A stretch of 41,507 nucleotides of DNA, from contig JADWMG010000008.1 of assembly GCA_015767405.1 (NCBI GenBank), forward strand, positions 1 through 41,507, given 5' to 3'. A model generated the notes under the pieces. That model had not been told where the DNA came from, ran no database searches, and saw nothing but the letters and a program-made list of their open reading frames with translations. The DNA comes from Actinomycetota bacterium. Lineage in GTDB: Bacteria > Actinomycetota > Acidimicrobiia > Acidimicrobiales > Ilumatobacteraceae. The position numbers were made by a program, and so were the translations under genes. Shown here piece by piece: positions 4,956 through 41,498 of the stretch. The number at the start of each line of letters is the position of its first letter. Position 1 is the first letter of the stretch.

Positions 4956-5653
4956 TGACCGGCCCAAAGCTCAACGAGATGTCTTTCGTCGCCGGTGAAC
5001 GTTCCGGTACGAAAGCCACAGCCAAGTACGTACGCACCTCCGCCTCCAAGGCTCGGGTTGTTCTCGATCTGATCCGCGGTCTCGACGTCAAGTCGGCCGA
5101 CGAGGTACTCCAGTTCACCGATCGTCATGTCGCGCAAAATGTCCGCAAGGTTCTTGCCAGCGCAGTCGCCAACGCCGTCAACAACGACGAGCAGGACGCA
5201 GAGGAACTCTACGTCATTGCGTGTTTCGCCGATGAGGGCCCCACGCTTCGCCGATTCCGGCCTCGTGCTCGAGGCCGCGCATCACGCATCCTCAAGCGCA
5301 GTTGTCACATCACCGTGATCGTTGCCCGCATGAGTGACGAACGGATCGAGATACTCACCGCCCGCCAAGAGCGTGCCGGTGGTGGCGGTGGCGGCCGAGG
5401 TCGTCCGCAGTCCTCCAGCGCCAGCCGTAGGGCCAGGGTCGAACGCAGCCGCGCCAAATCCGCCGATACCGAAGAGGCATCCACGGACGAAGCAGCAACC
5501 GACGAGTCAGCTGCCGAAGAGACCACCGACGAAGTCGCAACAGACGCCGAGATAATCGAAACGGATGCTGAGCAAACCAGCGATGAAGCGACAGACGCTG
5601 AGCATGCCGTCGAAGCGGACGACGAACCCGCCACCGGAGAGGACAATTCATAG
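4955..5653 (+). CDS. rplV: 50S ribosomal protein L22 with long acidic C-terminal extension
   Basis: [22 protein letters not shown]...[22 protein letters not shown] core followed by a Gly/Arg then Glu/Asp/Thr/Ala-rich tail. Confidence 0.95.
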
Positions 5654-6534
5654 TGGGCCAGAAAATCAACCCCTACGGCTTCCGTCTGGGAATCACCACC
5701 GACTGGAAGTCGCGTTGGTTCAGCGAGCGTGAGTACAAGGACTATCTCACCGAAGACTGGACCATCCGCCAGGAAATCATGGAGCGCCTGGAGTCGGCGG
5801 CGATCAGCCGTATCGAAGTCGAACGCACCCGTGACAAGCTGCGTGTCGATGTACACACGGCTCGCCCCGGCATCGTCATCGGTCGCCGTGGTGCTCAAGC
5901 TGACGAGCTCCGCCAAATGATCACGAAGATCACCGGCAACGGCAAGATCCAGCTGAACATCGTCGAGATCAAGAACCCCGAACTCGACGCCGCGCTCATT
6001 GCGCAGGGCGTCGCAGATCAGCTCGTCAATCGCATCGCCTTCCGGCGGGCCATGAAGCGTGCCGTGCAGAATGCACAGCGCGCCGGCGCCCTCGGTATCC
6101 GGGTTCAGTGCTCGGGTCGCCTCGGCGGCGCCGAGATGAGCCGGACCGAGTGGTATCGCGAGGGTCGTGTGCCGCTGCACACACTCCGCGCCGACATCGA
6201 CTACGGCATGCGTGAGGCCAAGACCACCAGTGGACGTGTCGGCGTCAAGGTGTGGATCTACAAGGGCGACATCCTGCCCTACAAGATCGTGAACGAAGAC
6301 AAGATTGCTCGCGAGGCGGCCATGGCCGTAGGCGAAACATCTGGTCAGGGTGGTCCCCGCAAGGTTGTCTCCTCTGGCGGTCCCCGCGAGGGTGCTCCCG
6401 CGCAGGAGACGCAGCCGCTCGTCAAAGAAGCTGATCCAGAGCTCGAGAAGTTGCTCGACGAAGAAGAAGCCATCGCCAAGCGCACTGCTGCGGCCGAAGG
6501 CTCCGAGACGCCACACTTTCGTGGCGAGGACTGA
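5653..6534 (+). CDS. rpsC: 30S ribosomal protein S3
   Basis: GTG start; [23 protein letters not shown]...KH-like [12 protein letters not shown]-terminal charged extension. Confidence 0.97.
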
Positions 6535-13700: not shown

Positions 13701-13751
13701 CGTTTGTATGTGGTTTTTCGGTCAGGACGACCAAAAAATTACATACAAACG
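13701..13751. repeat. Palindromic element family A, copy 2 (23-position stem hairpin); may act as bidirectional terminator
   Basis: CGTTTGTATGTGGTTTTTCGGTC-AGGAC-GACCAAAAAATTACATACAAACG; lies between convergent adk and the minus-strand lipoprotein gene. Confidence 0.85.
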
Positions 13752-15322: not shown

Positions 15323-16060
15323 ATGGTCGATACCGAACCGGTGACGACGAAGCGGCGGGGGCGCCCTCCCGCTTCTGACTCGACTGAAACGCGTCGGGCG
15401 ATATTCGACAACTCTCGCAGGTTGTTTGCCGAACGCGGCTATGGCGAAGTGACGAACAAGGAAGTGGCCTCGGCCGCTGGTATCACGACTGGGGCGCTCT
15501 ACCACTACGTCGATTCGAAGCTTGACCTCTACGTCGAGGTGTACCGAGACCTGCAGGACCGCGTATATGGCCGATTCAACGAGGCTGTCGATGCCTCCGA
15601 CACGTTTCTGGGAAAGCTCGAGGGGATTCTCGAGGCGGCGAATGCGATGAACGAAGAGGACTACACGCTGGCTTTGTTAGTCGGCACGGTACGCGCCGAC
15701 ATGCGGCGATTCCCGGAGATCAGGCGTCGACTGGCGCAGAGCGTTCGGCGACGCGATCGCTTCTTCGCTGACATCGTCGACGTGGGCGTGGCAACTGGCG
15801 AAATTGCACCCGAGTACCGAGACTCGTTCGCCGAGCTGATTCGGATCCTGCTGATCGGTCTGACAGAGGGCGGGACCGAATCGGTCGTGGTCAGAATCAG
15901 GGATTTGTGTGAGCAGACACTGGAGCGCCGCCGGTTTTTGCTGACACAAACCTTCGGCTCGAGCAGAATCGGCCCATTTCCAGCTTGTTTGACAGCCCTA
16001 GCATACGTATGGCGAAATCCAGGGGATCTCACCCGTGGTTCTCCGAAAATGCACCGCTAG
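15323..16060 (+). CDS. TetR/AcrR-family transcriptional regulator
   Basis: N-terminal HTH: RRAIFDNSRRLFAERGYGEVTNKEVASAAGITTGALYHYVDSKLDLY; ATG at 15323 assumed. Confidence 0.9.
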   Translation: MVDTEPVTTKRRGRPPASDSTETRRAIFDNSRRLFAERGYGEVTNKEVASAAGITTGALYHYVDSKLDLYVEVYRDLQDRVYGRFNEAVDASDTFLGKLEGILEAANAMNEEDYTLALLVGTVRADMRRFPEIRRRLAQSVRRRDRFFADIVDVGVATGEIAPEYRDSFAELIRILLIGLTEGGTESVVVRIRDLCEQTLERRRFLLTQTFGSSRIGPFPACLTALAYVWRNPGDLTRGSPKMHR

Positions 16061-25826: not shown

Positions 25827-25873
25827 TTTGTGTCAGCAGACACGGGTGCGCCACCGGTAGGTGCTGACACAAA
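25827..25873. repeat. Palindromic element family B, copy 1
   Basis: Perfect 12-bp arms TTTGTGTCAGCA (25827-25838)/TGCTGACACAAA (25862-25873). Confidence 0.85.
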
Positions 25874-25895: not shown

Positions 25896-25948
25896 AGTTT
25901 TGTGTCAGCGGAAATCTGTGCGTCATCGGTAAGTGCTGACACAAAACT
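25896..25948. repeat. Palindromic element family B, copy 2
   Basis: Perfect 14-bp arms AGTTTTGTGTCAGC (25896-25909)/GCTGACACAAAACT (25935-25948); loop shares GTGCG-CA-CGGTA with copy 1. Confidence 0.85.
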
Positions 25949-29429: not shown

Positions 29430-29795
29430 ATGATCGGTGTCGGAATCGATCTTGTCGACATCGAACGATTTCGTCGGTCTCTCGAGCGGACTCCAACTAT
29501 GCGCACGCGTCTATTCACTGAGATCGAACTGGCCTACGTAGCTCCGAAGAGTGATCCGGTGCCGTCTCTAGCGGCGCGCTTCGCCGCCCGCGAGGCGGTG
29601 ATGAAGGCACTAGGTCTGGGCCTCGGCGCCTTCTCATTTCACGATGTGTGGGTCGAGCGCGCCGAGTCGGGCCAACCGTCACTGGCGTTCGCAGGCCGGG
29701 CCGCAGAACTGTCCAGCGAAGCCGGAATTTCGTGTTGGCATCTGTCGCTGACGCACAGTGACATCATGGCTGCCGCTTACGTGATCGCCGAGTAG
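29430..29795 (+). CDS. acpS: Holo-[acyl-carrier-protein] synthase
   Basis: MIGVGIDLVDIERFRR...ARFAAREAVMKALGLG...HLSLTHSDIMAAAYVIAE. Confidence 0.94.
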   Translation: MIGVGIDLVDIERFRRSLERTPTMRTRLFTEIELAYVAPKSDPVPSLAARFAAREAVMKALGLGLGAFSFHDVWVERAESGQPSLAFAGRAAELSSEAGISCWHLSLTHSDIMAAAYVIAE

Positions 29796-29808: not shown

Positions 29809-29859
29809 CGAACGCGTGAACTTCTTGCGCACATAGTGCGCAACTTGTTCACGCGATCG
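29809..29859. repeat. Palindromic element family C, copy 1 (51 bp)
   Basis: CGAACGCGTGAACTTCTTGCGCACATAGTGCGCAACTTGTTCACGCGATCG; 48/51 identical to 41448-41498 by direct comparison; 13 nt after acpS stop. Confidence 0.9.
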
Positions 29860-40838: not shown

Positions 40839-40874
40839 AGAGGGCAACCCCCTCTGAACACCAGCTGATTATTG

Positions 40875-40902
40875 CGAGGCCCCGGGGTAACCCGGGGCCT
40901 CG
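40875..40902 (+). terminator. groEL terminator-like hairpin without U-tract
   Basis: Perfect 12-bp stem CGAGGCCCCGGG-GTAA-CCCGGGGCCTCG with GNRA-type tetraloop, 36 nt after groEL stop. Confidence 0.8.
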
Positions 40903-40943
40903 ACGCGTCTCTGGTGCAGCGCTACTCGGTAATCTCAACATTG

Positions 40944-41432
40944 ATGGTCAAAATCGAGCGAGCCCGTCGACCGTTCTGGATGCACCAAATTGTCGAGTAC
41001 ATGCTTGGCCTCATCCTGATCGCGGCGGCAGTACAGCAACCAAATCCCGCCGTTCCAGCAGTAATGGGTCTGCTGATAATTCTGAACGCGGCGATCACCA
41101 TCGGGCCTGCTGGTGCGTTCCGAATCATGAGTCGCAAGGTGCATCGGGTATTGGACCTTCTCGTGATCGCGATACTCGCCGCATCGACCTTGCAGACGTG
41201 GGTTGATGAGGACACGACTGGGCGCTTGGTGGTCGGTGCGATCACGTTTGTGCTTTTCATCGTGTGGTTTCACACCGACTTCGACGAACGCTCTGACCGC
41301 AAGGCACGCCGCGCCGCGCGGGCCAAACCGCAGAGTGAAGAACTCGGTAAGCAAGCGGGACGTGTGGTCGGCGACACCGTCAACTCACTCAAGCGTTGGA
41401 AAGACTCGATCGGCGACGATGACGACGAGTAG
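40944..41432 (+). CDS. Small multi-TM membrane protein with charged C-terminus, function unknown
   Basis: ATG 40944; about four hydrophobic segments, DDDDE terminus. Confidence 0.65.
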   Translation: MVKIERARRPFWMHQIVEYMLGLILIAAAVQQPNPAVPAVMGLLIILNAAITIGPAGAFRIMSRKVHRVLDLLVIAILAASTLQTWVDEDTTGRLVVGAITFVLFIVWFHTDFDERSDRKARRAARAKPQSEELGKQAGRVVGDTVNSLKRWKDSIGDDDDE

Positions 41433-41447
41433 GCGTTCTCCCTCATT

Positions 41448-41498
41448 CGAACGCGTGAACGTATTGCGCACATAGTGCGCAACTTGTTCACGCGTTCG
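41448..41498. repeat. Palindromic element family C, copy 2 (51 bp)
   Basis: CGAACGCGTGAACGTATTGCGCACATAGTGCGCAACTTGTTCACGCGTTCG; 15 nt after preceding stop. Confidence 0.9.

Follow-up and report, generated by a model that had tools for sequence, protein, structure and literature searches.

Dispersed palindromes are among the commonest repeats of bacterial genomes. In the literature consulted, the linked enzymes described for them are HUH-Y1 proteins, namely RAYT and TIRYT (PMC3733652, PMC6006769), and no enzyme is known for REPs of the CGTC superfamily (PMC3733652). Here we followed up a 51-bp palindrome, called family C, which occurs twice in the window, that is, the whole stretch of 41,507 nucleotides of Ilumatobacteraceae DNA that was analysed. 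Family C is a REP-like, lineage-specific dispersed element, and we consider it probable that it is a non-autonomous repeat served by a cognate two-domain enzyme, a nuclease of the AbiEi-wHTH/EDxHD type. The features discussed are collected in Table 1.

Table 1. Positions of family C copies, neighbouring genes, nuclease genes and the Y1 transposase gene (window coordinates unless a contig, locus or genome is named).
Feature	Location	Strand	Remarks
Copy 1 of the 51-bp family C palindrome	29809..29859	+	orientation set by ATA loop; 13 nt after acpS
Copy 2 of the 51-bp family C palindrome	41448..41498	+	15 nt after 186-aa ORF
Inner palindrome of copy 1, TTGCGCAC-ATA-GTGCGCAA	29825..29843	.	self-complementary, both strands; (nearly) invariant in 38 copies
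Inner palindrome of copy 2	41464..41482	.	(nearly) invariant in 38 copies
acpS, 3′ end precedes copy 1	29430..29795	+	PF01648, E 1.7e-16
186-aa ORF, 3′ end precedes copy 2	40872..41432	+	no Pfam match
Palindrome-nuclease-palindrome of G000	contig C220, L025: copies 5003-5053 and 6103-6153, ORF 5063-6067	ORF minus strand	outside the window
Palindrome-nuclease-palindrome of G102	ORF 4620178-4621104; copies 4620122-4620172 and 4621191-4621241		homologous nuclease
G000 nuclease	C220		palindrome is family C
G000 nuclease	C90		56% identical to that of C220; contig end, one flank seen; CTCGTGAACTATTNCCGACG..., similar outer arm, different inner arm
G000 nuclease	C144		palindrome GGTGAGC/GATGAGT...
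G000 nuclease	C8		palindrome GCCTCAAA...CATGCGC
Y1_Tnp of G000, 299 aa, TIRYT type	L049 1003-1902; L156 12389-12429 (contig C4)		DnaA_C-like C-terminus; dispersed palindrome AAATGACACGAATGGGGTCAGACCCC

The description of the two window copies in the earlier note was largely confirmed. Both are 51 bp long and agree at 48 of 51 positions, with mismatches at element positions 14, 16, and 48, and the inner palindrome is exact in both; it had 0 matches in dinucleotide shuffles of the window. The reported distances to the preceding stop codons (13 nt for acpS, 15 nt for the 186-aa ORF) were reproduced, and no T-run follows either copy, in agreement with the claim that a U-tract is missing. Both window copies are near-perfect hairpins, with a predicted RNA fold of -33.7 kcal/mol for copy 1 plus 10-nt flanks (z = -5.5) and a predicted DNA fold of -21.7 kcal/mol for the 51-mer (z = -6.9). 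The exception was the 3x3 internal loop, described as conserved: across the 38 copies identified in the genome the triplets vary, and in approximately 7 copies they are fully complementary (ATC/GAT, TTG/CAA, GTA/TAC, ATG/CAT), while most of those in genome G103 form pairs (TCG/CGA). The window has no Rfam match at gathering thresholds, and a known RNA family was ruled out within it on these grounds. A role of the palindrome at RNA 3′ ends is compatible with our data.

The genome to which the window belongs (G000) is a 3.35 Mb draft in 438 contigs, and all the other genomes used are likewise drafts, except G102, G109, and G111. G000 contains at least 38 copies of the family C core (≤2 mismatches), 27 of which are exact. 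When the flanks of all 38 copies were fetched and aligned, the ATA loop was found in 38/38 and the arms (GCGTGAAC, TTGCGCA) were nearly invariant in sequence. After addition of the copies from other species, variation was located mostly in the spacers and outermost pairs, with the arm sequence fixed. Because the arms are fixed while spacers and outer pairs vary, the constraint acts on sequence and not on pairing alone. The half motif TGAAC-N3-TTGCGCA never occurred outside full elements in 288 kb, which rules out DNA-uptake-like half-sites. We also observed a skewed composition in the 25 nt that adjoin the stem, with much C and A on the left side and much G and T on the right (L016-L048 and the window); the flanks look as if the elements sit in weaker pre-existing hairpins.

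We analyzed the placement of the elements relative to genes predicted with a simple codon-usage caller (89% coding, 309 genes). None of the 38 copies was inside a predicted gene. Copies between genes were distributed as 14 convergent, 18 tandem, and 3 divergent, compared with 10, 55, and 35% of the other intergenic space (p = 5e-9), and 14 of the 18 tandem copies were closer to the upstream stop codon. In about six cases the predicted gene extends into the element and its stop codon is the TGA (once TAA) of GCGTGAAC. The same placement habits, including stop-codon donation, have been described for REPs (Di Nocera et al., PMC3733652). We then compared gene junctions among sister species, searching the C-termini of the genes that precede 18 elements in two genomes of the same genus (G133 and G134) and comparing the DNA that follows the orthologous stop codons. 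In the clean cases, in which the next gene is conserved too, the family C element is missing from the sister species. The spacer behind acpS measures 98 nt in G000 vs. approximately 24 nt at the empty syntenic site of G134 (L108), and a convergent junction measures approximately 83 nt in G000 (L031) vs. 23 nt (L120); further clean empty junctions were those of leuS, L026, L034, and L044. These sites were judged empty at the level of the gene junction, as divergence is too high for exact junctions, and the direction of the change (gain in G000 vs. loss in the sisters) rests on absence in two relatives. The proposal of a REP/BIME-like non-autonomous element is therefore supported: rather than being confined to the two window sites or placed at random, the family comprises at least 38 non-randomly placed copies, all outside predicted genes and behind stop codons, and the corresponding sister-species junctions are empty in the clean cases.

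A scan of GTDB r220 with a half-relaxed pattern returned contigs of four MAGs (Ilumatobacteraceae, Acidimicrobiaceae or Actinomycetes). An exact-core search of relatives had suggested that family C was nearly unique; this impression arose from the variability of the loop and was overturned by a covariance model (copies counted up to 26), which detected the element in 18 of the 222 family genomes. The complete genome G102 has 38 copies, all of 51 nt, with E-values from 6e-7 to 2e-3 and a clear score gap beneath. Family C is patchy among congeners, and master versions differ from genome to genome, with the ATA loop in G000, C/G-rich loops in G103, and the core CTGCGGAACTATTCCGCAG in G102, a pattern that fits amplification within lineages.

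Family C copies are often paired approximately 1 kb apart, and the pairs in G000 (L025), G103 (L050), and G110 (L076) enclose homologous ORFs of 311-334 aa. The orthologues of G107, G108, G114, and G115 lie between palindrome variants whose arms are GCGTGAGG (or GCGTGAGC). The encoded protein has an N-terminal AbiEi_4 winged helix (PF13338), and PADLOC AbiEi models match its N-terminal half, comprising the winged helix and the following domain. Its C-terminal part corresponds to an MTES_1575/DUF559 region, with a weak match, and the match to PF18741 is below the curated cut-off. The best PDB profile match, also weak (E = 0.028), is 3r3p ("mobile intron protein"), which we take to be I-Bth0305I of the EDxHD family. 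Eight residues (E228, D260, E271, D273, H278, D287, D291, and R303) are 95-100% conserved among 45 homologues, the first five being the putative catalytic residues of the predicted EDxHD/Vsr-like domain. MTES_1575 was defined as a Vsr-fold nuclease (PMC3710099). An AlphaFold model built from two sequences reached a pLDDT of 43 and was not used. That the fold assignment is weak by sequence counts against the nuclease model.

In L025 there is no AbiEii toxin gene beside the nuclease, the neighbours being SDR and MFS genes, and a tblastn search for nuclease homologues on plasmids found none. Of 397 genomes sampled across the phylum, 115 had homologues. The palindrome occurs in 10/10 genomes that have this nuclease clade vs. 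8/212 of the others (Fisher 7e-13). The eight genomes with the element and without a close nuclease count against the nuclease model; several of them are incomplete, but G105 and G112 are not. In the open-access literature, we found no publication linking AbiEi/DUF559 or MTES_1575 to palindromes, or REPs to an endonuclease in actinobacteria. As a separate observation, four more palindrome pairs of G102, spaced 0.8-1.1 kb apart (L129, L134, L138, and L139), each surround a single ordinary gene, encoding a methyltransferase, an alpha/beta hydrolase, a DinB/maleylpyruvate-isomerase-like protein, and a luciferase-like oxidoreductase. We estimate that approximately 0.4 such pairs would be expected by chance (38 copies in 4.78 Mb), and the pairs look like cassettes. 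One of them allows a direct comparison of content: L025 4192-6153 (G000) and L129 675-2349 (G102) share the same upstream SDR gene (82% C-terminal identity), which is followed by palindrome-nuclease-palindrome in G000 and by palindrome-methyltransferase-palindrome in G102.

We next asked how general the flanking of nuclease genes by repeats is, aligning the 260 nt upstream of each nuclease locus with the 260 nt downstream. A shared flank repeat with a score ≥17, the 99th percentile of 148 control genes, was found at 36 of the 42 nuclease loci of the family (Mann-Whitney p = 1e-21, a value that overstates independence, as do the other p-values, the loci being related by descent) and at approximately 1% of the controls. 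The control that clearly exceeded the threshold (score 28) was the Y1/TIRYT gene itself, which served as a built-in positive control. Stricter controls had 99th percentiles of 20 (displaced windows of the same loci) and 21 (random windows of G134); with a cut-off of ≥22, 35 of the 42 loci pass, leaving seven without a convincing shared flank. Flanks matched between loci in 87-100% of the pairs whose nucleases are ≥60% identical, in 42% at 50-60% identity, and in 2-5% below 50%. This switch of palindrome between nuclease subfamilies is a stronger argument than the p-values. Among loci from elsewhere in the phylum, 11 of 22 scored ≥22, a weaker result in that the controls were unmatched for base composition.

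Individual genomes illustrate the switch. In an independent nuclease subfamily, the palindrome GAGTCGGGACTCGCA...TGCGAGTCCCGACTC flanks the nucleases of L185 and L200 and has 16 copies in G203 and 13 in G202, and a GAGTGGGTACTCGCA version occurs 10 times in G194, where two copies bound the nuclease; in 12 congeners of these three genomes we found 0 palindromes of the GAGTCGGGACTCGCA type. In 400 kb of G134 there are seven copies of CCGAAATTCGGAGC..., one of them within nuclease locus L191, and ten copies of GATGAGT...ACTCATC, which bounds the nuclease of L192. G000 itself has four nuclease genes of the AbiEi/EDxHD type, each adjoining its own dispersed palindrome. Sequence comparison thus establishes the association of nuclease and palindrome and their cognate specificity.

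Some observations on other palindromes may be added. In G134, L122 (1380-1480) holds two copies of the palindrome of the L192 nuclease, 62 bp apart, and corresponds to the site of element 23 of G000 (L038), such that unrelated palindromes converge on one gene end. The window contains another palindrome family, TTTGTGTCAGC...GCTGACACAAA (15904-15950, 25827-25873, and 25899-25945), which has more copies in L030, L037, L039, and L046 and is often paired at 61-72 bp, and a third one, CGTTTGTAGGTAATT...ACCTACAAACG (1915-1965 and 13701-13751), with more copies in L018, L029, L046, and L047.

Considering the observed dispersal, extragenic 3′ placement, absence from sister species, nuclease flanking, and subfamily-specific palindromes, we infer that the nuclease binds, cuts, and mobilises the palindrome. 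The full unit would be palindrome-nuclease gene-palindrome. The N-terminal AbiEi-type winged helix would read the palindrome, the C-terminal Vsr/EDxHD homing-endonuclease-like domain would nick or cut it, and repair at the broken or nicked site (or an excision that leaves a single palindrome behind) would spread the palindrome to new places, single palindromes representing non-autonomous copies. AbiEi proteins have been reported to bind inverted repeats at their own promoters (PMC7319586). Behind a gene, where the palindrome would form a strong bidirectional hairpin, insertion is perhaps tolerable, or may be useful as a transcript 3′ end. The wider reading, for which we see the chances as even, is that such units form a widespread class of mobile elements in Actinomycetota, in which an AbiEi-winged-helix/EDxHD-nuclease gene lies between two palindromes and its enzyme recognises and propagates its own palindrome, doing the job of a RAYT by unrelated chemistry (break or nick plus repair).

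A serious variant of the nuclease mechanism is that the palindrome-nuclease-palindrome unit is mobile and that most single palindromes are solo-LTR-like scars, left where recombination deleted the gene, rather than products of mobilisation in trans. This would account for the two full palindromes that bound the gene and for single copies being exactly one palindrome long. However, deletion would have to be very efficient to leave 38 scars against a single intact unit of the clade and one diverged paralogue, recombination would have to act on a short stretch of 51 bp, and the paired copies of G102 hold ordinary genes, not decayed nucleases; we therefore consider this origin of the single copies unlikely.

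Alternatively, family C may be a classical REP that the Y1 transposase of G000 (RAYT/TIRYT) mobilises in trans, with the nuclease as a passenger. The element shows REP habits (PMC3733652), and co-occurrence of Y1 and element is near-perfect over 222 genomes (17 with both, 3 with Y1 only, 1 with a weak element only) and holds within three genera as well (p = 5e-5). Y1_Tnp thus co-occurs with the element across genomes (17/18) at least as tightly as the nuclease does, which is evidence against the nuclease model. However, the direct partnership with a RAYT/IS200 enzyme that the earlier note had envisaged is not supported, the co-occurrence being statistical and the gene unlinked to the element. 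The single Y1 gene of G000, whose product scores 50 bits against the REP_Tyr_transpos model (cut-off 80), has no family C element at its locus. Its flanks instead carry AAATGACACGAATGGGGTCAGACCCC, a palindrome that is dispersed in its own right (L019, L039, and L156) and has the GGGG[AT][CG]A[CG] motif of TIRYTs, and other Y1 genes of the family have similar GGGGTCAGACCCC or GGTGCCAGGCACC-type repeats; such an own dispersed palindrome (GGGGTCAGACCCC) is typical of a TIRYT (PMC6006769). Proteins with a DnaA_C-like C-terminus constitute Y1 subclass 2.1, for which Quentin et al. found no REPs (PMC6006769). The GT[AG]G foot is absent from the flanks and first positions of all 38 family C copies, and the TIRYT motif is absent from the element, the TIRYT repeat being a separate family. 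In addition, G111 has five Y1 genes and zero elements, and mobilisation by Y1 leaves the nuclease flanking and cognate specificity unexplained. Taken together, these points make this explanation quite improbable.

An immobile functional element under selection (a bidirectional terminator, mRNA 3′-end hairpin or regulator site whose operator or terminator the nuclease gene merely shares) would agree with the position behind stop codons, the convergent bias, the strong hairpin on both strands, and the binding of inverted repeats by AbiEi proteins (PMC7319586), but is very unlikely given that the element is missing from the same junctions in sister species, that its arms are kept by sequence and not by compensatory pairing, that it has no U-tract, and that its patchiness among congeners and per-genome master versions (ATA in 38/38 copies of G000, a different loop or core in G103 and in G102) fit amplification.

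Our results connect cognate palindromes with an actinobacterial protein (AbiEi plus Vsr-like nuclease) that is common but has no known function, which gives a large orphan family a predicted role. Nuclease and palindrome can be tested directly as enzyme and site, and for REP-like repeats that have no transposase the nuclease is a possible partner; if true, the new class of mobile elements could explain REP families lacking a RAYT. The many nuclease-palindrome pairs are, in addition, a natural panel of matched specificities in which the co-evolution of enzyme and site can be studied.

Several known systems resemble parts of this arrangement. AbiE type IV toxin-antitoxin systems share with the nuclease the winged helix and following domain matched by AbiEi models, although here a C-terminal nuclease replaces the antitoxin's own ending and L025 has no adjoining AbiEii toxin gene. 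EDxHD homing endonucleases (I-Bth0305I, PDB 3r3p) and Vsr-fold MTES_1575 nucleases are similar in the weak profile match over the catalytic part and in the conserved acidic and histidine residues (E/D/ExD/H); unlike the homing endonucleases, the palindrome nuclease lies outside any intron or intein and carries an AbiEi winged helix, and whereas homing targets an allelic site, its palindromes are dispersed at unrelated sites. CGTC-tagged REPs are likewise dispersed palindromes to which no Y1 enzyme is linked (PMC3733652), but family C lacks the tag, an unpaired CGTC at one end, and a candidate enzyme partner has been identified for it. In TIRtrons (TIRYT, Y1 subclass 2.1), one of which is co-resident in G000, the enzyme gene is also bounded by inverted repeats that are dispersed as well, although in the TIRYT of G000 the repeat (GGGGTCAGACCCC) is a different one and the enzyme is unrelated. 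A further resemblance is to REP/REPIN sequences and their RAYT (TnpA_REP), the "REPtrons", which are also short dispersed extragenic palindromes behind genes, between convergent or tandem genes, with occasional stop-codon donation, species-specific versions, and a single cognate enzyme gene that has its repeat at its flanks (PMC3733652, PMC6006769). Family C differs from them in its 51-bp stem, compared with the usual 20-40 bp, in occurring as single units and not as inverted doublets, in lacking the GT[AG]G foot, and in its linked enzyme, an AbiEi/EDxHD-type nuclease rather than an HUH-Y1 transposase. Family C and its nuclease work like REP and RAYT while failing two defining features, the GT[AG]G foot and a linked RAYT.
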